Positions 6,540 to 64,000 of a DNA stretch of 64,000 nucleotides are shown here, in pieces. Position numbers and translations under genes: made by a program. The first letter of the stretch is position 1, and each line of letters starts with the position of its first letter. This stretch comes from Ulota crispa. Taxonomy: Eukaryota; Streptophyta; Bryopsida; Orthotrichales; Orthotrichaceae. The stretch covers positions 4,838,501 through 4,902,500 of the forward strand of contig OY987244.1 of NCBI GenBank assembly GCA_963920765.1. The letters are read 5' to 3'. Under the pieces are notes generated by a model. That model had not been told where the DNA came from. It made no database searches and saw nothing but the letters and a program-made list of their open reading frames with translations.

Positions 6540-6890
6540 TGGATGAACAAAATACTTTCTCATTCGTCGAGAAAATGAATGAGGTCCATGACGAGAGGAC
6601 AGAGGAGGGTAAGTGGATGACCAACATCCTTCTCATTCGTCAAAAAATTGGATGAGACCCCTGATGAGACGAGTCGGCATGAGAATGAACAACATCCTTA
6701 CCATTCGTCGAGAAAGTGGATGAGGTCCGCGACGAGAGGAGGGCACGTAAATGAACAACATCCTTCCTATTCGTCGAGAAAACAAATGAAGTCCATGACG
6801 AGAGGAGGGCAAGTGGATGAACAACATCCTTCCTGTTCGTCGAGAAAGTAGATGAGGTCCATGCCTAGACGAGGGTAAGTAGATGAATGA
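6540..6890. repeat. Degenerate ~66-bp tandem repeat upstream of ALY
   Basis: About five units of the pattern CATCCTT..CATTCGTCGAGAAA, then GGATGAGGTCCATGACGAGA, then GGAGGGCAAGTGGATGAACAA. It is richer in G+C and CpG than the flanks. The repeat keeps several reading frames open on both strands, which I take to be a by-product. It ends about 650 bp before the ALY start codon. Confidence 0.75.
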
Positions 6891-11507: not shown

Positions 11508-11670
11508 ATTCATTCAGTTCCTCTAAAGATGAAGAAAGTAACTTTTCAATCTTCAAAGAATAGATCCTTTGCAAATCAAGGAGAGAGTGCTACAACCCAG
11601 AGACTTTTTTCATCATTTTGTTAGCCTACAAGACTTGTAGAGATTTAGTTTGTTTTTTTATTTAAGCTTA

Positions 11671-12076
11671 AGGTAGAAGCACATAAATGTGACATTTTTG
11701 TTACATCAATTCACTAGGAGTGTGCATTGAAATTTTGAGATTGTAGAATGGTTAGGAAACCAACACAGAGTGTTGAAGAATTGTTTTTGGAATTTTCTAA
11801 GATCATATGAATAAACTACAAATTGTTGAAGGTAACTCCCTAAACACACCTATTGTGGACAATAGACCCTCATTGAATTGCTTGCATTGAAATGCAAATG
11901 CGACATCAAAAAGACCATGCCACATGTTGCCACGTACACAATTTTTGTTCCAATACTCAATTATGATGACAACTTTAGCTGACTTGCATGTCTAATTTGG
12001 GTACTTGATGGTTCAAATACGGATTCATTTATAGGTTTCTGAAAACGAATAGTGTCATATTAAGATGCTTCTACCT
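11671..12076. mobile_element. TA-type MITE (P copy), sister of chitinase intron 1
   Basis: Begins AGGTAGAAGCACATAAATGTGACA, ends TGTCATATTAAGATGCTTCTACCT, and is flanked by TA on both sides. The interior aligns with chitinase intron 1 (shared TGAATAAA..GAATTGTTGAA, CACAATTTTTGTT), so that intron belongs to a dispersed repeat family. 406 bp. Confidence 0.75.
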
Positions 12077-12492
12077 TAATATATATGGATCAGTTCATTT
12101 TTAACAAAAACTTACGTCTATTACAAGTAGATCCAATAGTGTCATGAACAATAATCAAAGGTTATACTCTAGGTGATACCAAAGAAAGTAGGAGAAAGTG
12201 AGTGAGGCACAAGTACTTAATTTCCTTTTTATTTTCTTTTCTTTTCCTGCATGTTAACAAAAGTCTAGTATTTCAATTTAAAGGAGATGTAATACCCACA
12301 TTCTTGTGGAATTGCTATTGAATTTATGTTTCAGAAAATGAACTTAAAATTCTTGATTATTCCAAATGTCAAGTAAAAAAAAGTACAAACACATGAATCC
12401 TATATTTTAGCCACCACAAACCACCTCTTGACGGCAAAAACCAAGAATATTTTCATTTAAAAAATGAATATAACCTAACACCTCTATACTAT

Positions 12493-13385
12493 ACAGTACC
12501 CAAAAGAAAGAGTACATAACACCCTTTTATGGCATCCAAAGAAGTATGTATAACTATGTATAACAAAGAATATAACTCACATTTCATTCTCACATTTTTA
12601 ATATGCAATACTCATGCAATCTTGATCAAGCATACCAAATTTTAGTTACTAAAACCCAAAATCCTATTTTTGGTAAATGGTTTTGTGTCAAAATCATGGT
12701 TTTACAAGAAAGTTGATTAATAAATAGTGGTGATGAATTTTTGAGATTTGATTGCATGGATATATAGGAGATATCCATATTCACATCTTCCTTTCAAACA
12801 AACATTTTCAAAGAAATTCTATATTCCTTCTGTAGAGATTTTAATGTTAGTGTGATTATGACCAAATTTAGTAAAATTTATATTTCTTCATGGAAATTAG
12901 CTTTTGTTATTTGACTCATACATTGTGATTAAGTTTGTACCTTTAAACATGATAATATGATTTTTTTGCCAAAAACTAATTTCCATGAAGAAATATGTAT
13001 TTAACTAAATTTGGCCATAATCACTCTGACATTAAAATCTCTACAGAAGGAATATAGAATTTCTTTGAAAATGTTTGTTTGAAAGGAAGATGTGCATATG
13101 GATATCTCCTACATATCCATGCAATCAAATCTCAAAAATTCATCACCACTATTTATTAATCAACTTTCTTGTAAAACCATGATTTTGACACAAAACCATT
13201 TACCAAAACTAGAATTTTGGGTTTTAGTAACTAAAATTTGGTATGCTTGATCAAGATTGCATGAGGATTGCATATTAAAAATGTGAGAATGAAATGTGAG
13301 TTATATTCTTTGTTATACACAGTTATACATACTTCTTTGGATGCCATAAAAGGGTGTTATATACTCTTTCTTTTGGGTACTGTAC
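12493..13385. mobile_element. Large foldback element (family H), ~890 bp
   Basis: Two arms of about 420 bp are near-perfect inverted copies around a centre near 12940. The outer ends are TACAGTACCCAAAAGAAAGAGTA and its inverse. Internal matches include CCCTTTTATGGCATCCAAAGAAGTATG and its inverse, and CTTGATCAAGCATACCAAATTT and its inverse. It carries no coding capacity. Transcription would give a long double-stranded RNA. Confidence 0.85.
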
Positions 13386-26963: not shown

Positions 26964-29900
26964 ATGGCTATGGCTATGGCGATGAAACGATATCTGGCTA
27001 TGGCTATGGGTATGGCGATGGCGCTTGTGTTGAGCTTTGGATTGACGGCCATGGCGGATGGTGAGTGCAGTGCAGCGGCGCCATGTCCGGACTCGACCAA
27101 TTGTTGCAGCCAGTACGGCTACTGTGGCAAAGGAGAGCTCTATTGCGGGAAAGGCTGTAAGGTATGTACACCCAAAAGTGACACTTAGCTTAGATATAGT
27201 TATTGGGAGGGTCTTTTGAGACTCTAATGGCATGTGCTTGTTAGTTAAAGTAAAATTGTTTTCAGAAATTTTCTGAGATTGTATGAATAAATTATGAATT
27301 GTTGAAAGTAATTCCCTATTATGAATTCTAGACTCCTGGAAAAGCGACAACAAAAAAATCATGTCACACTCAATCATAAATCGTCACTTACACAATTTTT
27401 GTTTTTTTATGTCAACTTACGTGTTTGATTTAGGTGCATGTGTGTCTTGTTTGGGTGCAAAAGTGCTACTTTTAGATTTAATTTTAGATGTCACTAAACT
27501 GCTGGTGTGACTGATGGGTGTATATACCTTCAGGCTGGCCCCTGCACTGGCGGATCCCCGCCTCCCCCGCCATCTGGCGGTGCTGCCTTGGGCGACATCT
27601 TCACCCGGAGCTTGTTCGAGCAGTTCTTTCCAGGCCACCTTTCGTTCTACTCTTACGATAATCTCATTGAAGCCGCCAAGCTGTTTCCGAAGTTCGGAAC
27701 CACTGGAGACGCTAACGTTCGGAAGCGCGAAATCGCTGCGTACGTGGCGCATGTTACACATGAAACCTCGGGTTTGTCTCTGACCTCCATTGCACTTCCT
27801 TCAACAATCCATTACGATCCACTGTTGATCACCAAGGTAGGAACCAGTGAAAACATTTTGTGCTAATTATCGTTTTTTTGCCACACCAAAATTGGTGTGG
27901 CTAATTGTTCTATAGTACTTTTTGAAAAAATGTAAAATATTTAGCCAACTTTTATACATGGGTTTGGGAGTAGGAGTCTTGATTTTAGGGTTTTACTTGA
28001 TGTTCCCTCATCCTACTAGTGCAATATTATGATTTCTCATAAAACCATCATGAGATCTAGTTTTGATGAAAGGTTGAAAGCATCCAACTTTTACATTTAT
28101 AAAAGACATGTAGCCATCCTTGCTACTCAACCATTTTTTGGTTAGAAAAAAAGCTAAGGCCACCTCATCCAAAATATTTTCACTAGTAGGAACACTCATA
28201 AGTGTTAGTTTAAGGGTTTTGAACATGATGACTATTAATAAACATCTAGCAAATAATAGGATCTTGTTAGCAATAGAAAAATAATGAGTTTGTAATTTTG
28301 AATGTATTATTTGGATATTGTGAGAATAAGTTGTGAATTTTTAGAGAGCAAACTACCATTGCACCCATAACCACTATTAAGATTTCATGTTCACATGTTG
28401 TACATCCTTGTAATTATATCTATTCACTTCTACAGATTTTCCAAGATTTCAGAGGTGACGGTTATGGTGCTTATGGGTGTTCCTACCTTAAACTCTTTTA
28501 GAATTCCAAAATAGGAGATCATAGAGCACACTATAAGGTAGTGTGCTCATAAACCATCCATCTAAGGGCTGAAACTGAATTTTGGGGAGGTAAAACTTCT
28601 TGAACTATTTTTCAGTAAATTTTCCTTGAAAGACAAGAAGAATTGACATCTAACCCAAATTGTTTCATATTTTTTGGAGCTTTGTGGAATTAGTTATGAA
28701 ATTTTGAAGCAGAAAGGCCATAGGTCTCTAAAATTGCCCACCTCCTCAAATGTACATTGCTTGTATGTTGTTGAAAGGCTATGAAAAACAGCATATACCA
28801 ATAGAGTACATTTGGTGAAGTGAGCGGTTTTAGAGCCCGAGTGGAATTATATGAGTAGACTACCTTAAGTGACAAATAGACAACTTAGTCATGATTCAAA
28901 GATTAGTGGCCATGGTCATGCTTAAGGTAGCAGCACCCATAACCTTAGAATTAAGGTTTTTGAACATGATTATTAATAAACATCTAGTAAATTATAGGAT
29001 CCTATTAGCAAGAGAAACATGATGAGTTTGCACTTTTAAATGTATTATTTGGATATTGTGAGAAATAAGTTGTGAATTTTTAAAGAGAATTGCACCTAAT
29101 ACCAACACTACGATTTCATGTTCACATGTTGTACATCCTTGTAATTACATCTGTTCATTTCCATAAATTCTCCAAAATTTTAGAGATGATGCTTATGGGG
29201 ACAATGACGCTTGTGGGTGCTGCTACCTTACATCACTTGCTACAAAATTTAACTAAGGGTATGTTCACACTTGGTGTCTAATAAGTAATAGCAAAGGAAA
29301 ATTAGATGCATTTGAACACACCTTTTAACTGCATTCATATTACTAATACCCCTTGTAACACCAAGTGTGAACATACCCTAAGTGTATGAAGGAAATGGGA
29401 TCAGGTTCTTCAAGGAACAAGTGCTTAACCTCCTTTACTTCCGCTCTGTTTCAGGGCTGACGAAAATTGTTGAGCAAACCAATGACCCTTACTGCGACAC
29501 TACAAGGCCGGAGTTTCCTTGTAATGGAAAGCATTTCAATGGTCGCGGCCCTCTCCAACTTTCATGGTATTTATACTCTTCAAATTACCCTCCATCTTAT
29601 GCGCGGCAGTTCGCTAGTCGTGTGACATGGTCCTGTGAACGAGTCTCCTGTGTAGCATAATGTTTCATCAATATGTTGTTTATTAAAATTAATTCAACAT
29701 ATTGCTCAGCATGTCGTTTAGTACGTTTGGTTTTGGTTACTATGAACTCGAGAGCTGGAAGGCTCCAGAGCATTATCAAACAAAATGCCAAGTTCTATGC
29801 AAACTAGGGACTCTGAATTATGAGAGGGGTTATGATTTAGGGAAAATTTCATGGATATCCCTGAAGTTTGCCATAGATACCCTGTTATTTCAGAAATTTC

Positions 29901-30637
29901 AGAAATACCCTTGGACCAGACCAAAATTTTCAGGCGCTTGTTTTGTTGTGCATGCCACTTCCCTTCTTCCAAAAAAGAAGTAGTGTGCGCACAAGGGGAG
30001 AAGGAAGTGACATGCACAACAAAACAAATGCCTTGGTCTAAGGGTATTTGTGAAATTTCTGAAAAAGCAGGGGTATTTATGAAAATATTGCAAACTTCAG
30101 GGGTACCCATGAAATTTTCCGTATGATTTATAAACCCAAACTAATAAGACATGCCTTGAACACCGGACTTGGTATTAGGTGACATTTTATCAACGTTTAG
30201 GTCATTGAAGCCAAATCGACATCTAATTCATTATTTTCAACAGGAACTACAATTACGGCACTTGTGGCAAGTACTTGGGCATAGATCTTCTCAACAACCC
30301 AGATCTGGTGGCGACAGACCCGCTCATCTCTTTCAAAACCAGCCTATGGTTTTGGAATCAGTATGGAGACAATGTCATCCCTCACATCCATGATGTTATA
30401 ACTGGAAGCTGGAAACCAAACAGCGCCGACACAGCTGCCAAACGTCTTCCAGGTTTTGGTGTTACCATTGTCATTATCAATGGAGGCTTAGAGTGCGGCA
30501 AAGAGAGTGCACTGGCGGACGCTCGAGTGACATATTTCAAGAACTTTTGCAGTCGGCTAGGCGTGGACCCTGGTGCTAATCTCGACTGCAAACAGATGAA
30601 ATCCTTTTATAGTGCCAACTTCGCTGTGGAGTCTTAA
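26964..30637 (+). CDS. Secreted chitinase, hevein (CBM18) plus GH19 domain
   Basis: Endochitinase that cleaves beta-1,4-GlcNAc chains, expected in the cell wall or vacuole as an antifungal defence enzyme. Exons: 26964-27161, 27534-27771, 29455-29566, 30244-30637; spliced length 942 nt, 313 aa. Residues 1 to about 33 are a signal peptide built from repeated MA dipeptides. A hevein domain with all eight cysteines follows (to about residue 70), then a short [11 protein letters not shown] hinge and the GH19 domain. HETSGGL carries the first catalytic Glu (E143); E152 in IVEQTND sits where the second is expected. [15 protein letters not shown] and [13 protein letters not shown] are family motifs. 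A start at in-frame 26877 would bury the signal peptide, so 26964 is preferred. Intron 1 is a transposable element; introns 2 and 3 are packed with MITEs. The gene looks intact and is closest to class IV/I enzymes. Confidence 0.95.
27160..27529. mobile_element. TA-type MITE that constitutes chitinase intron 1
   Basis: Ends AGGTATGTACACCCAAAAGT and its inverse from ..GATGGGTGTATATACCT, preceded by TA (27158-27159) and followed by TC (27530-27531) where TA is expected. The intron runs from 27162 (GTATGT, from the element's third base) to 27533 (AG just after the target duplication). The interior matches the element at 11671-12076. 370 bp. A branch-point-like GACTGATG lies about 22 nt before the acceptor. 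Confidence 0.85.
28184..28488. mobile_element. TA-type MITE (B copy) in chitinase intron 2
   Basis: Right end CTTATGGGTGTTCCTACCT then TA; left end GTAGGAACACTCATAAG, somewhat eroded. The body matches 178-496 and 28925-29228. Confidence 0.7.
28536..28865. mobile_element. TA-type MITE (E copy) in chitinase intron 2
   Basis: TA then AGGTAGTGTGCTCATA at the left; TATGAGTAGACTACCT then TA at the right. It matches 528-1081 without the D2 insertion, giving the empty-site sequence GGGCTGAAACTGAATTTTGG. Confidence 0.8.
28925..29228. mobile_element. TA-type MITE (B copy) in chitinase intron 2
   Basis: TA then AGGTAGCAGCACCCATAA at the left; TTGTGGGTGCTGCTACCT then TA at the right. 304 bp. Confidence 0.85.
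29257..29378. mobile_element. Tourist-like MITE, 122 bp, in chitinase intron 2
   Basis: Perfect inverted ends GGGTATGTTCACACTTGGTG / CACCAAGTGTGAACATACCC flanked by TAA on both sides. A 3-bp TAA duplication is characteristic of PIF/Harbinger-derived Tourist MITEs. It ends about 75 bp before exon 3. Confidence 0.85.
29840..30121. mobile_element. MULE-like MITE (family C), copy 3, in chitinase intron 3
   Basis: GGGAAAATTTCATGGATATC at the left, GGTACCCATGAAATTTTCC at the right, with an exact 9-bp duplication TATGATTTA on both sides (29831-29839 and 30122-30130). Confidence 0.9.
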
Positions 30638-30816: not shown

Positions 30817-31096
30817 TAAGGTATGTACACCCATAAGCACCACTGTCCCCATAACCGTCACCTCTGAAAGCTTGGAAAATCGGTGAAAATGAATAAATGT
30901 AATGACAAGGATGTACAACATGTAAACATTAAATCTTAATACTAGTGGTTATGGGTGCAATGGCAGTTTGCTCTTTAAAAATTCACAGCTTATTCTCACA
31001 GTATCCAAATAATACATTCAAAAGTGCAGACTCACTATTTTTTTTGTTCCTAATAGGATCCTATAATTTGTTAACTGTATGGGTGTACATACCTTA
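30817..31096. mobile_element. TA-type MITE (B copy) downstream of the chitinase
   Basis: AGTAAGGTATGTACACCCATAAG at the left and TATGGGTGTACATACCTTA at the right. Its terminus is the same AGGTATGTACACCCA that forms the 5' splice site in chitinase intron 1. It lies in or just after the 3' UTR region. Confidence 0.85.
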
Positions 31097-31587: not shown

Positions 31588-34500
31588 TTAATATCTTACA
31601 GGTTGTCCCCAAGCGCCTTGACCCCTGGCCAGCAAAGAGGCGTACAAAAGCTCGTTCCATGTATCAGGGACGCCAGGCAAACAGAAATGGCTGCAGTCTT
31701 GCTGTCGCTTCGGAGCTAGTCCATGGACTTTGACATCTTTTGTATACAACCCTATGTGTCCATCAGCTCTGTAGTCGGAGGCCGTGGTGACGTCCATGTA
31801 CTCGACGGCACTCCGCTTGGTCTTTATGTTGCGAGTGATGGCGTCCATAACGAGCTTGTTGGTCCATGGTGTCTCTTGCATTTGCTGTACCTCTTCGTCG
31901 GTGAGTGGCTTCTGTTCCTCGTGACAGTGGCCTCCGCCGTTCCACACCCCTCCTCTGCACCGTCTCAAACGTTAGAGCGTGTTACTCATTAATTTGGGAA
32001 AACGATGGGTACCATATTGTACCTCACCTTAAGCCAAAATAGCCACCTTAATTTATGTCAACGAACCACATGGAACCATATTCATTAAATTGAGATCACC
32101 TTAAATCTAGTTAATGAACTTTCTGTCCAAAAAAAGCTTATTTCTAGAAGTTATATATTTCATTTCATTGAAAAACACGCAACAAATTCCCAATTCAATG
32201 AATATGGCGTTCTTTGGAAAAAAAAAGCCACAACTCCCAACTCCCAATTTGTACACTTTTTCCTAAATTAACTAAAAACCCGTTTTAGGGTTTGTTAGAG
32301 CTGGCTGCTTCCAGCCGCGTATTTCTGTCGTTTGTTTTTCAAATCCTGTCGCTCTAGAACTTTCTTAGCTGTAGAGATTTCAAATTTTCCCTCCAACCTC
32401 GGGGTACAGGCCTCGAACTCTAACATCCCCCGCTCTAAGTTAACTCCACTAAGTTACACACAGATCTCTTCAGTATATCTTTCTCTAATATCTCATCTTT
32501 CAGCCTCCTACAAATTCTAAGGATCAAAGGTAAGGTAGGCGCACCCATAAGCGTGGAAATAAGGGTTTTGGAGTAGGTAAAACAATTGACTAACTTTGAT
32601 TGAAAAAAATACGGTATGTTACGAAATGGAAACCAAAAATATTGGCATCAATTTCAAGGTTACAGCTACAAGCATTTGTTCACAAAGATTTTTCAAGTCC
32701 AAAATCACTGAAATTGTAGGAACCATGTGTAAGAGATGCTAATCACAAGGCTTGTTGGTTCTTAAATAGTGAGATGGGTACTCAAAACCTCATGCTAGTC
32801 ACCCACAACCATCACTTCATCACCCATAACCATCACTTCATCACCCATAACCATCACTCAGTCACCCACGACCATTTGCTTTTTTATTAATTAGCCCTGC
32901 CACTGTCAGGTGATGGGCATGGGGACGCAACGCTTATGGATGCTGCTACCTTACTTTGTATTACAATACCCACTCTATGACCAAACCTTATAGAATAATA
33001 AATTCACCAGCTCAAAGCTTATTTTCAGCATATCTTCTTGTTTAGCACAAGTTGTTATGTCCAAGATGTGGCATACAATTGATACATTAACCCCTAAAGG
33101 ACCAAGCAGCCCTTTGCAACCAATACAACTGGGTTTTTCTCATATTTGGAGTGCATCCACACCTTTATTACATTTGAAATCAACAAAGAAGTTAGAATAT
33201 AGATCAATATTGTTCTAGTGAGGTTGTCAAGATCCCAAATTAAACCTTTTTATTGGTAGCAAATGCCAGTTATATAGTAGCGTACATACTACGTACTATG
33301 GTTGCTTGGTCCTTTAAGGGTTAAGGGATTTTACAAGTGTGCAAAGAGTTTGAGACCACCTTCACTCTTGTAGCCCCAAGCATTCTAATGTCACTTTTGT
33401 GTGCAACACTATTGAGTGTCACAATGTTGAACTTTTCTATTTTGTCTCGAACACATAATAAAGCTATCTCATTCTCATTGTGTGAAACTACAAGTTTTGT
33501 TGATGTGACATGTTTCTTATTGACCAAGAATGAGCTGAATTACAATTGGTGACGCAAAAGTATTACTATTGTGCTCATAATACAAGCTCATTGTTAGAAG
33601 TAAGTGTGCACTTAGTAATAAAAGCAAGGAGGGGTACTAGTTAAAAATTCTATTGGCTCAAACATACTTGCATTGAGATTGTGGCAAGGGATGGTAAAGT
33701 AGGTCAAAGAATACTTTCAAAATTTGACATGCTTTGCCATTACCTGATATTCATTTGATTAAAGTTGTGAGAATTTGGCAAACATGTTATGTCACCAAGA
33801 GATATGATTGATAGCTCAACTCACCTAAAATGCACTGATGAAAAACTGCGGAAAAACACTTGAGTATTTTCAAGGTCAAGATTCTCTTCCATCCACAATG
33901 TCCAAGTCTTCAAGGCAACTTGGAATCCTTCTACAAAGGTGTGAGTGGTTAGATTGTCACCCATTTGGAACCGGCCACCGCTGCATAAAAGATCCAAGCC
34001 CAAAATCAACTCAACTATCAATAGGTGGGATTCCATTGCCATAGGTTTTTGTTTTGAAAGTCAAGTCTTGTCATTTAAAAGGATTCTAATGCACGAAAAT
34101 ATGCATTAGTTAAACATTACATTAATGAGTTATGAATCACAAAAGTTTGAAGAAAAATATTTCAAATTGCAAGTATAGATTAACCTTGAATCACAAAAGT
34201 TGCATACAAAATGTACCTCTAAAAGGCACCTTTGACTATATCAATACCTAAATGCGTCTTGGTCTTGCAAATCTTTTGTTTTAAGATATTGAAATGTTGA
34301 ATGATACCAAGCACACACACCCTCCAAAATCTTGTACTACGTACATGTAGTGATTTGGGGAATACACACCACCTTCACTACTAGAAATTTGTGTGCATTT
34401 CAAATAATTTGCAAATAAGACCTTATAACTTTTGCAAAGTGTATCCAACGAATACATTTTTGGTGTGTTAGAATTTTTCTTCAACTTGCCAAAAATAGCA

Positions 34501-42784: not shown

Positions 42785-42786
42785 TA

Positions 42787-43159
42787 AGGTAGCCGCACTC
42801 ATGGGCGTGACATCTCTATGGGTGTCACTGACTAAGTCACGGTGGTTATGGGTACTTAAGTGATATTTATGAGTGACAAAGTGATGGTTGTGGGTGACTT
42901 GCATGACGGTTTTGAGTACCCATCTCACTATTTAAGAACCAACAAGCCTATTTTTAGCACCTCTTACACATGGTTCTTACAATTTCATTATTTTTCAACT
43001 TTGAAAATCTTTGTGAACAAATGCTAGCACAAGGAACCTTGAAATTGATGCCAATATTTTTGGTTTCCATTTCCTAACTTACAATATTTTTTTCAAAGTT
43101 AGCCAATTGTTTCACCTACTCCAAAACCCTTATTTCCACGCTTATGGGTGCACCTACCT
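42787..43159. mobile_element. TA-type MITE (A copy) inside a tandem repeat
   Basis: CATTTA then AGGTAGCCGCACTCATGG at the left; CTTATGGGTGCACCTACCT then TAATTGACTGA at the right. The neighbouring tandem unit reads CATTTAATTGAC, so the site before insertion held a single TA. Confidence 0.9.
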
Positions 43160-43263
43160 TAATTGACTGACTTTTGGATTCTTCAATTTATATTTAGACC
43201 CTAATTTTGTCATGTGTTCAAGGAGATAACAATAACCAACTTCTAAATAGGGACAGGTTCTCA

Positions 43264-43498
43264 TTAACCCCTAAACGTCTAAGTGTGCCACTCCGACTTA
43301 GTACAATATGGGGTATTTTTCTTGTATTTGGAATGGATCCACACCTCTACTACATTTGAAACCAACAAAGAAGTTGGAGAATATATCAATGCAGTTCTAG
43401 TGAGCTACTTGAGATCCCAAACTAAAATTTCTTATTGGTAGCAAATGACAATTATACGTCAGCGTATATACTATGCCCCATGGACGTTTAAGGGTTAA
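43264..43498. mobile_element. TTAA-type MITE (family D3), copy 2
   Basis: TTAACCCCTAAACGTC at the left and GGACGTTTAAGGGTTAA at the right; body as 33087-33324. Confidence 0.85.
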
Positions 43499-43850
43499 GG
43501 TAGACACACCCATTCCCAATCTTCCCCCAGTTCTGCACCCTACTTTTGAGGGTTTCACCACAAACTCTTGAATTGCTAAGCTAGTTTGGGAGGGTCGCGA
43601 TTGGGACCGTCAAGTGCCATTATAGGAACACATCCAATCATTTTCAAGGTTAGTCTAGAGTTGCTAATAGGGACCCTATGAGCTGCAACTTTGCCCTTTA
43701 ATATAACATAATCTACAATATTTTTTTCTATAAAAGTTAATTTCCATGATAGCTTGTTGAAAGACTAACTCTATGGATTTTTTTCCTGAATTTTTAAAGA
43801 CATTGAGATGCCCCAAACTCTTAAACGGTTGGGTATGGGTCTGCCTACTT
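43498..43850. mobile_element. TA-type MITE (R copy), abutting a TTAA element
   Basis: AGGTAGACACACCCATTCCC at the left; GGGTATGGGTCTGCCTACTT then TA at the right. Its left TA is part of the TTAA of the D3 element ending at 43498. Confidence 0.65.
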
Positions 43851-44375
43851 TAGGACCCATAAAGTCATCTAAAATTTTCCTCCCTAGACCAGCAAACACA
43901 AATGTGCACTTATACAGTACAATCCCTGGAACAAAGTTTGAGTTTTTTTTTTGTGCCATTCAAACAAGTTGCATACTCTAGGTTGATAGCAGATTCGGCA
44001 TAAAACAATTCTCCAACTTTTGCCTAATTATTCTATAAATTATTCTCCAAAAATGCCCAATGTTGAACAAATCACAAATTGAAATGCCAAATTGTATAAA
44101 AGTCATTAAGCTTACCTAACAATGAAAAGTCAAGGTTGATTCCAAGAGGGCTCAATCTATTGCAAATTTCTTACCAAGGGCTAATTTTAGGAAGTGAAAG
44201 ATGCTTAGAAAAAGGCTTAATTCTACTTTCTTTTTTATTGAATGCCAAATAATAACAACTTTTTTTGAAAGTGCCTAATCTTATTTAATTATAAAATGTG
44301 ATGACAAATTGATTTTTTCTAAAAAAATAATTAATTCAGCACAGAGCAGCCAAATCTACTCCCCACCTACAGTAA

Positions 44376-45132
44376 TATAGAACACAACTAGATTTCTTTT
44401 TGTTTGGCATCATTGATATTAAAATCTTATGCAACTTTGATCAAGCACATCAAATTCCAATTCCAAAAAATCAAAACCCCATTTTTGGTGAATTATTTTT
44501 TATTTTATTCATGGTTTTACATGATAATTGATTAAAAAAATTTAGTGATTAATTTTTGAGATTTGATTGCACAGGTATGTAGGTAACATCTACAAACAAT
44601 TCTTTTATGTCACAACAAATCTCATTTAGTAACAAGTATATGATTTATGAAGAATTCTATGTGAGGGGTGGTATGACCAAAGTTTGTAAAATAGATATTT
44701 CTATTTTTAAACTATTTTTTTGCAAAGTAAACATATCATCATACTCAAAGGTACAAACTTAATCATATTGTGTGAATCAAATAGCAAAATCTAATGAGCT
44801 TAGAGAAATATGTATTTAACAAAATTTGGACATAGTCACCCATCAATGAAATCTCTAAAACATAAATTATGAAGCTTTTTTGGAGATGCTTGTAACACAT
44901 AAAAGTTGTGTGTACGGATGTTACCTACATACCAGTGCAACAAAATCTCAAAAATTCATCACTAATATTTTTTAATCAACTATCATGTAAAATCATGAAT
45001 ATCATGGAAAATAATTCACCAAAACTAGAGTTTTGATTTTTTGGAATTGAAATTTGGTAGGCTTGATCAGATTTATAAAAGACTTTGATATTAATGATGC
45101 AAGATAAATAAATTCCAATTATGTTCTATGTT
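44376..45132. mobile_element. Foldback element (family H), copy 2
   Basis: Two inverted arms around a centre near 44760, for example TTGATCAAGCACATCAAATTCC versus AATTTGGTAGGCTTGATCA, and CATGATGATATG-type words. The outer ends are eroded. Confidence 0.65.
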
Positions 45133-45189
45133 CTGCAAGCTCTTTGAATGACAGAAAAGGAAAAACTTAAATTTCTTTCCAAGGATTGT

Positions 45190-46031
45190 ATAGTACCAAA
45201 AAGAAAGTGTACGTAGGGCCCTTTTATGGCATTCAAAGAAGTGAGCAAAATAAAGAATATAATTCAATCTCATATTTCTGGTATCTAAACTCTCATGCAA
45301 TTTCAATCAAGCATACCATACTTCAACTTTTGAAACCAAAAGCTTATTTTTGGTGAATCATTTTAATTAAAATTCTTGGGTTTACATGATAATTGAATAA
45401 AAACATTGGTGATGAGTTTTTTAGATTTGATGGCATGAATATGTAGGAATCGTTCATACACACATCTAACATCTTCAAAATGTTTCAAAATTTCTTCTAC
45501 ATGGATTTTAATGTTAGAATGATCATGACCATATCTAGTAGATTAGATATTTTTTTATGGTAATCGAATTTTGCTATTTGATTCATACATGGCTGATTAA
45601 GTTTGTAACTTTGAGCATGATGATATGTTTCTTTTGCCAAAAGCAAATTAAAAATTAGAGATATCTAAATTACTATGTTTGGTCATGATCACCCTAGCAT
45701 TAAAATATTTGTAGAAGAAATTTTGAAACTTTTTGAAGATATTAGATGTGTATATGAACGTTTCCTACATATTCATGCCATCAAATCTAAAAAACTCATC
45801 ACCAATGTTTTTTATTCAATTATCATGTAAACCCAAGAATTTTAATTAAAATGATTCACCAAAAATAAGCTTTTGGTTTTTAAAAGCTAAAATATGGTAT
45901 GCTTCATTAGAATTACATGAGGATTTAGATACCAACAATATGAGATTGAAGTGCCAATTATATTCTTTATTGTACATACTTCTTTGAATGCCATAAAAGG
46001 ACTTTACGTATGCTTTCTTTCTAGTATTGTA
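45190..46031. mobile_element. Foldback element (family H), copy 3, ~840 bp
   Basis: AGTACCAAAAAGAAAGTGTACG and the inverse of CGTATGCTTTCTTTCTAGTATT mark the ends. CCCTTTTATGGCATTCAAAGAAG is mirrored by CTTCTTTGAATGCCATAAAAGG. Arms of about 400 bp. Confidence 0.8.
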
Positions 46032-56340: not shown

Positions 56341-56501
56341 ACCACACCAATTCCCAAAAGCAAGTGTGGAAAGTCCTGCATGTACACTCCATGTACTATA
56401 CTATACAGCATTGCTTGACATGTAAATGGGACATTTCCACGTGGCGTCCATCTATGGGTGCTTGTGTTCACCTACATGAACAAGAGTACCAATTACTAGT
56501 A

Positions 56502-56874
56502 AGGTAGCCGCACCCATGGGCGTGACGTCCCCATGGGCGTTACTGACAAAGTCAGGGTGGCTATGGGTACTGAAGTGATAGTTATGAGTGACAAAGTGAT
56601 GGTTGTGGGTGATTTCATGATGGTTTTGAGTACCCATCTCACTATTTAAGACTAGCAAGCCTTGTTTTTAGCATCTCTTACACATGGTTCCTACAATTTC
56701 AGTGATTTTGGACTTTGAAAAATCTTTGTGAACAAACGCTTGTAGTTGGAACCTTGAAATTGATGCCAATATTTTTAATTTCCATTTCCTAACTTAGAGT
56801 ATTTTTTTCAAAGTTAGTCAGTTGTTTTACCTACTCCAAAACCCTTATTTCCACACTTATGGGTGCGCCTACCT
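56502..56874. mobile_element. TA-type MITE (A copy), 373 bp
   Basis: TA then AGGTAGCCGCACCCATGGG; right end CTTATGGGTGCGCCTACCT then TA. The body matches 42787-43159 and 63005-63400. Confidence 0.88.
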
Positions 56875-57990
56875 TACCTTGTAATTTTCTCTCTTTGCCA
56901 ATGGCACCTCTTCTCTTCGCCTTCCAAAGTGTTCTATTTGATTTTTAGTTCATTTTCTTTCTTTTTTTTTTCCCTCTTTTCAATGACTCTATGGGAGAAC
57001 CAAGATTTGCATAAATTTATATGTATCGTCATGGTTTTTTCTTTGGGGACAGCATGCATAAATGACTGGGGAAGGGGTGCGTGGCGTTTTTGGAATTCTT
57101 GCAATACTAGACGCTCATGAAAAATTTGCAAATACACTAGGGAAAATCAGAAGCAATATGTTCATTTCAAATATTTGAATCATGTCAATCCAACTGGTAA
57201 AAATCAAGGAATCTTAACCTACTACACATTGGAAAAAACACACACATGCGAATTGCTCAAAATATCAAACTTCCAAATTTTGACAAGGGGCATATGGAAT
57301 GGAGGGTTATGCATCGCCCAAGACAGGCCCCTTCCACTCCACTCCCCTTTGCCTAAGTGGCCACACTTGTGCCCGTAAAGACTAACTCTCTTTGGAGTCA
57401 ACACCCACTTACTAAAAAGAGGCCTTGTCTCTTCCCCTATTTTTAGTAAATTCTTGCATAACTTCTTCCTCAAATGTTGAAACGAAGAAAAAATTATATG
57501 CCCAAATAGGTTTTTGAATCCCCATCTTAATATATAATAGAGTAGGGGTTTTTGTTTGTCTATATTAGTTGAGGGTACAATATCTTGCGTCAGCAAAATC
57601 TGTCGCAAGGATAAATAATTGCATGAGTAAAAAACATCATGTGTAAAAAAATTCTTGGGTAAAAAATAAAAAAAATAAAAAAATATTGTGAATGATTACT
57701 ATGTCTATGTGGGTAAAATATATGTGTAGGTAAAAAATAAATAATATTTTTATGCGTATATGTAATAGATTATGCTAATTATTGATCCGCATTATTTTCA
57801 ACATAATGGAAATTTATGGGTAAAAAAACTTACATATGGAAAAACTTGCTGCACAAAAAAAAAAAATTGTCAAGCAAAGTGACAATAGAAGGTTTTGGAT
57901 AAGAGGTAATAAAAATGCATATGAATATTTTGTGGTTAGAATTTAATGTTGTAAGAAAATTAGTTTTCTTTTTACACCTTGCTTTTTTTG
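56875..57990. other. Intergenic stretch, nothing recognised
   Basis: No gene or repeat boundary supported; open frames near 57222-57608 resemble nothing known. Confidence 0.4.
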
Positions 57991-62754: not shown

Positions 62755-63004
62755 ATGGTAGTATAGATTATACAGTAGTCATCTATGCATTGAAGATACT
62801 CAAAATTTTGAATATTATTCTAAATAATTGTGTATTTTTGTCACAAAAATACCTTCATAAAAGGTTCTTCTCTATTCACGTGTATGCCTTACTAACTCTT
62901 GTCTTCCATCTAGGACTTTGTAAAATGTTTTTAAAAACTTAAAAAGGCAAAGAAAATGCATGCATGGATTGCAAACAAAAAGAAGAAGAAAGGGGTTGAA
63001 TGTA

Positions 63005-63400
63005 AGGTAGGCACACCCATCCTCGTCATGTCCTCATGGGCGTTACTTGACATTGTCAAGAATTAACAAATATAAATCAAATGGTTATGGGTAATTAAGT
63101 GATAGTTATGGTTGACAAAGTGACGGTTGTGGGTGACTTGCATGACAACTTTGAGTACCCATCTCACTATTTAAGAATGAGCAAGCCTTGTTTTTAGCAT
63201 CTCTTACACATAGTTCCTACAATTTCAGTGATTTTGGACTTTGAAAAATCTTTGTGAACAAATGCTTGCAATTGGAACCTTGAAATTGACGCCAATATTT
63301 TTGGTTTCCACTTCCTAACTTATAGCATTTTTTTCAAAGTTAGTCAATTGTTTTACCTACTCCAAAACCCTTATTTCCACGCTTATGGGTGCGCCTACCT
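63005..63400. mobile_element. TA-type MITE (A copy), 396 bp
   Basis: TA then AGGTAGGCACACCCATCC at the left; GCTTATGGGTGCGCCTACCT then TA at the right; body as 56502-56874. Confidence 0.88.
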
Positions 63401-64000
63401 TAATATACAAATTCTACACTTTGACTTGCTTGTGCCTATCCAAGGGTGATGGCATGATCAAGGTACCCCTGAAAGAGCCTACCGGACCTTCGGACAGGAC
63501 TTTTTCCCGAGGAGTCCGGATTATTTTTGTTTAGGTAAAAGTTTGAATTTGCAAGTGATGAAACATTTTTCTTAAGCTTTCCTTACGTTAAGACATTCAT
63601 TTAGAAAGTGTTCCTTCCATCAAAAGGAATTTTTTTGATTTTCTTTCACACCGCAAAAGTGATTAGAACCCAAATGTCCTGATCCGGACTTTTTTTGACT
63701 TGTAATTTGTAATGGCTCCCTAAAATGAATTATTAACATTTTAATAATTTTTACCATATGTGCACCTAGAAATAAGTATATGTGCATGCTTTTACCACTT
63801 TAAAAAAAATTACAAATTTTTAATGTTCTTTATTGGACGTGGAAAAACTTGCATGAAAGTGTCCCTAAAAGAATTCATTACAACTAGTTTTAATAATGTA
63901 TGGACTAATACACTTCAAATTCATGGATCATAGGAGCTTGCACAACTATAAATGCATTAACCTAATTCCTACTAACCAAACTTGCAGTCCGGATGAGTCC
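63401..64000. other. Window end, nothing firmly recognised
   Basis: The words GTCCGGAT/ATCCGGAC occur near 63516, 63681 and 63986; they may belong to a repeat continuing past the window. Confidence 0.3.

Follow-up and report, generated by a model that had tools for sequence, protein, structure and literature searches.

How introns originate is an old open question, to which land plants contribute no introners in the available portions of a large survey (PMC9860276). The first intron of a chitinase gene in Ulota crispa raises the question in a particularly sharp form: its predicted borders lie almost exactly at the ends of a short transposable element, and one may ask whether the insertion of that element made the intron. 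We have considered this within a window of 64 kb, the whole stretch of genomic DNA analysed, which has a GC content of 36% and in which two genes, both of plant type, are recognised.

The first intron of a plant-type chitinase gene

The gene model on the + strand (26964-30637) describes a plant-type chitinase with a hevein and a GH19 domain, encoded by four exons. Its spliced coding sequence of 942 nt gives 313 residues with no internal stops, and the Pfam domains found are Chitin_bind_1 and Glyco_hydro_19. Exon 1 (26964-27161) encodes the signal peptide and the hevein domain as far as ...GKGCK (PF00187, E 2e-07), with seven of the eight hevein cysteines; its final AG consists of bases of the element terminus. 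Exon 2 (27534-27771) carries the eighth cysteine, a Pro-rich linker and the start of the GH19 domain (PF00182, E 2.3e-14 on 27534-27863), and in the model it is followed by exon 3 (29455-29566) and by exon 4 with the stop codon (30244-30637; PF00182, E 1.8e-38 on 30275-30634). Among relatives with solved structures the best four are ancestral or redesigned-ancestral GH19 enzymes and the fifth is 2dkv, a rice class I chitinase according to the reference list of PMC10378081. The HETSG stretch of the chitinase aligns with these solved GH19 relatives.

Intron 1 as predicted (27162-27533, + strand; 372 nt, phase 0) has the borders AAG|GTATGT...ACCTTCAG|G. A sequence-only reading of the locus had claimed that such borders are the ends of a MITE, and this holds well: a MITE-type inverted-repeat element reading AGGTATGTACACCC...GGGTGTATATACCT occupies 27160-27529, the intron starts two bases inside one of its ends and stops four bases past the other, and the element is collinear over its full length with a copy at 11669-12078. 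On the left, a TA target-site copy (27158-27159, delimited from the sequence and the terminus profile) precedes the terminus AGGTATGTACACCCA, of which the first four bases are the donor AG|GT, within AG|GTATGT, just as that reading had it. On the right, the terminus (reverse complement AGGTATATACACCCA) is followed by TC instead of the expected TA (27530-27531) and then by the host AG (27532-27533), again in agreement with the earlier claim; the acceptor CAG is thus composed of the target-site duplication (TSD) and host AG, and exon 2 begins at 27534. When the left end, TA + AGGTATGTACACCCA, is compared with the reverse-complemented right end, GA + AGGTATATACACCCA, 15 of 17 positions agree, TSD dinucleotides included, and one of the two mismatches is at a TSD base. 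A 2-bp TSD is by itself no proof of an insertion, and with TC as its right copy the duplication is imperfect. The predicted splice product, GGCTGTAAGGCTGG, matches exactly the junction GGCTGTA+AGGCTGG that had been proposed, i.e. the sequence expected before insertion.

By a rough hand estimate, in which each strand of the 64 kb is taken to carry about 10 ends, the chance that both borders coincide with element ends is about 2e-8 per intron. When 16 donors and 22 acceptors of the GT/AG type were tried at this site, with introns of at least 70 nt, the frame stayed open in 14 pairs, and only one of these (27161/27534) kept the hevein domain complete; without splicing, a stop is reached at the ninth codon after the donor. 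Intron 1 is T-rich (37% T, 33% GC, against 47-58% GC in the exons), and it contains a branch-point-like CTGAT whose A precedes the acceptor by about 20 nt, a short and common motif given here with no chance control. The sequence supports the view that intron 1 is one complete transposon copy carrying the donor, with the host giving the acceptor AG and a product that is seamless.

RNA folding predicts strong pairing between the two termini of the element (summed pair probability 15.9), and pairing of this kind may help splicing or hinder it, for example by hiding the donor. The strong hairpin lends something to the idea that the insertion broke the gene, leaving a pseudogene or null allele in which the apparent splice sites are unused. 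Against this, the remaining frame is intact across four exons, and the sole hevein-preserving pair of the 14 ends in CAG, which is the favoured acceptor and was made by one changed TSD base. We find a broken gene scarcely credible.

An abundant family of short inverted-repeat elements

The window contains 11 elements with the terminus TA|AGGTAnnnnCACCCATAAG, about one per 6 kb. Nine have two clear ends (11669-12078, 27158-27531, 28923-29230, 30817-31096, 32531-32953, 42785-43161, 43496-43852, 56500-56876 and 63003-63402), and in the other two (about 180-499, and 28180-28490) one end has decayed. The nine fully delimited copies measure 280-423 bp including the TA, short as a MITE must be, and the copies have in common terminal inverted repeats of about 13-19 nt, several of the copies having mismatches there. 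Short length, shared inverted termini and TA target duplication, three features of TA-target, Tc1/mariner-like MITEs, are found in this family. The terminus of Stowaway elements is CTCCCTCC; here the termini read AGGTA..., so that the family has AGGTAnnnnCACCCATAAG where Stowaway has CTCCCTCC. In its TA target, shortness, inverted termini, abundance and position near genes it nevertheless resembles the Stowaway / Tc1-mariner MITEs as passages of a 2025 review of plant MITEs describe them (PMC12595863).

When the 64 kb are scored with a terminus profile, 19 ends reach 12 or more, whereas five Markov-sampled controls give 1, 2, 1, 2 and 0; 22 ends reach 9 or more, against 5, 4, 3, 2 and 2. The excess is inflated, since 14 of the ends scored had served to build the profile. 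For the count of flanking dinucleotides we have used 20 ends, the 19 with scores of at least 12 plus that at 12078, which scores only 9.2 but is paired with 11669 and is included for that reason. Outside this set lie the unpaired ends scoring at least 9 at 2442 and 42065 (the latter 11.2) and the decayed left ends of about 180-499 and 28180-28490, neither of which reads TAAGG. TA adjoins 18 of the 20, the exceptions being the end at 499, which is next to TT, and the right end of the intron 1 element, next to TC on the + strand.

This near-uniform preference bears on a different account of the right border, in which the insertion was at TC, into an ancestral TGT CAG GCT (Cys-Gln-Ala); the CAG acceptor would then be original and the left TSD would have become TA later. 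The right target copy does read TC, and Gln is common after this cysteine in hevein domains, both of which favour such a target. With 18 of 20 scored family ends adjoining TA, however, a rare non-TA target would be required, and we regard this account as very improbable.

The donor-like character of the terminus is a property of the family. In the nine delimited elements every one of the 18 ends has GTA where the donor would be, in 17 cases with AAG in front of it (AAG|GTA), and the ends match AAG|GTAAGT at 6 to 8 of the 9 positions, the GTATGT type of intron 1 at 8. The idea that either orientation of the element would present AG/GTATRT is borne out for the intron 1 copy (GTATGT in one, GTATAT in the other). 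A yTnAy motif is present in the last 34 nt at 10 of the 18 ends, which is only suggestive for so common a motif with no chance control.

Relatives of the intron 1 element

The copy at 11669-12078 (+ strand), which the sequence-only reading had called a sister, has TA at both ends, and no gene is recognised around it, in a stretch without protein-domain scan. Its global alignment with intron 1 scores 251, whereas 200 shuffles average 96 and never exceed 127 (local z 19), and it is the sole strong relative of the intron 1 element among the delimited elements. The other seven, tested in both orientations (14 tests), gave top z values of 6.5, 5.8 and 4.4, the second of these with 43496-43852.

The element at 30817-31096 (+ strand by profile and alignment) had been said to have the same terminus as intron 1. 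It does, with TAAGGTATGTACACCCATA at both ends, but its interior is unlike that of intron 1 and belongs to another subfamily, so that the likeness is one of terminus only. It lies about 180 bp downstream of the chitinase stop codon and its termini match each other over 19 nt. Two elements of the same subfamily, reversed relative to it (- strand), are found in chitinase intron 2: 28923-29230, whose ends lie off the splice sites, and 28180-28490, with a decayed left end and hence an approximate boundary. These three and 180-499 form a second subfamily, whose termini are the same and none of whose members is at splice borders. Another four elements (32531-32953, 42785-43161, 56500-56876 and 63003-63402), 377-423 bp long and with TAAGGTA at their termini, are linked by repeat matches, which suggest that they share an interior.

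These comparisons give no support to the earlier claim that the intron was gained recently. The right TSD and terminus of the intron 1 element carry substitutions, and its nearest relative in the window shows 83% identity (54/65) over only 65 bp. The termini likewise give no support to a recent date: the intron 1 pair differ from one another, whereas the 30817-31096 pair agree over 19 nt.

A search of viral and prokaryote contig collections for the element family or the chitinase gave one pattern match and no confirmed relatives.

Origin of intron 1

We think it quite probable, from the arrangement of the bases at the two borders, that intron 1 arose when a TA-target MITE that already contained a donor was inserted. 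The element, a non-autonomous DNA transposon of small size, would have entered the hevein-coding exon at TGTA|AGG, duplicating the TA. The first bases of its terminus, AGGTATGT, read as the end of an exon followed by a strong donor, AG|GTATGT, and the acceptor at the far end would be formed by ...TACCT, the TSD and the host AG. At the time of insertion that acceptor would have been TTAAG, and a later change of the second TSD base to C would have given TTCAG. Splicing would excise the element and one TSD copy, with the element AG replacing the host AG, and the mRNA would therefore be unchanged by the insertion. Splicing in the plant, the ancestral TA on the right and the absence of the intron from orthologues are what we infer here. 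The coding sequence of 942 nt, once spliced, has 36 TA in all and only one TAAG; the latter has been kept out of the evidence because any such insertion would create one.

A gain of intron 1, rather than the retention of an old intron position, is likely because three exons are given for other hevein-GH19 genes, as against the four here: two in Selaginella (PMC10378081), seven in garlic (PMC8068077) and one in Drosera capensis (PMC8490864), each source giving, in the parts available, counts without intron positions. One could instead imagine that an older intron at this site took up the MITE and then lost the remaining old sequence. MITEs do occur in introns here, as the two copies in chitinase intron 2 demonstrate, and plant chitinase intron numbers are reported to vary, two to four introns being typical, in a passage of PMC8490864. 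Such a history nonetheless requires both old flanks to vanish to the exact base at each end, since between exon and element only the TSD and AG remain, and we judge it quite improbable.

We rejected chitinase intron 2 as a further element-made intron: a donor at AAGGTAGGAAC joined to the exon 3 acceptor gives, by hand, AAG GGC TGA, a stop, and the working donor of this intron is GTTTGT at 27772. The 11 bases of AAGGTAGGAAC (27834-27844) match the terminus of element 28180-28490 and may represent a decayed end or chance.

Relation to introners and to other transposon-derived introns

According to the available text of the survey by Gozashti et al. 2022 (PMC9860276), non-autonomous DNA transposons account for many introners, and terminal inverted repeats occur in many families; some families bring the 5' splice site and co-opt the 3' splice site at insertion, and in most the mRNA length is unaltered. 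The intron 1 element has much the same character: it is a non-autonomous inverted-repeat DNA transposon with the donor in the element, a co-opted acceptor and, on the predicted splicing, unchanged mRNA length, and its ends set the predicted splice borders. It differs in that only one intron of the window is involved, the other copies having no recognised introns and two lying inside an ordinary intron; the 2-bp TA target and the land plant host also set it apart from the surveyed introners. Calling it introner-like is fair for the mechanism, but element-terminus borders are found in only one of the seven introns of the two annotated genes (the second gene has four of these, located by eye), which does not establish a proliferating introner family. 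That a true introner family exists here, i.e. an abundant TA-target MITE superfamily with AG|GTA in both orientations that would repeatedly form seamless introns at TAAG, we regard as possible but doubtful. The reading predicts seamless MITE introns at other TAAG sites in the same genome.

Within animals and land plants the survey, as far as its available text goes, places introners in two groups only, both of them animals, and an introner family in Ulota crispa, if true, would be the first in land plants to that extent. The methods of the survey include a section headed 'Identifying Highly Similar Introns', and a diverged family like the present one might therefore be missed.

Single transposon-made introns are already known from plants; a plant introner family would be new. 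The maize case reportedly involves a Ds insertion acting as an intron, and that of rice catalase is said to be a SINE-like intron; the present case resembles them as a plant transposon insertion turned intron and, so far as those accounts go, differs in its TA-target MITE, its donor inside both termini and its seamless product. Both genera, Oryza and Zea, are tabulated in the accessible part of PMC3443670 (citing Giroux 1994 and Iwamoto 1998). The review PMC12595863 states that MITEs bring new splice sites; intron birth is absent from its 11 passages on introns, splicing, exonization and Tc1. Plant MSH1 genes show intron gains and losses in a paper whose available passages merely cite the introner survey (PMC10487979). 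Among the literature matches listed, none has a title or displayed abstract on a family of land-plant introns born from MITEs.

Other features of the window

The second recognised gene (about 39700-31591, - strand) is trichome-birefringence-like (TBL), with PMR5N and PC-esterase domains. By eye, its second intron (35960-35880, - strand) seems to have a GC donor, TACAG|GCACGC, on the basis of the continuous protein reading ...EYYR|DPYLVPQ; if it does not, the gene is damaged at this point. A hairpin at 12492-13384 consists of two 415-nt arms, 97% complementary and spaced by 63 nt, and stretches related to it are found near 1592-2023 and 44307-45944. Finally, a tandem array with a unit spacing of 66-73 bp occupies 6557-6887.
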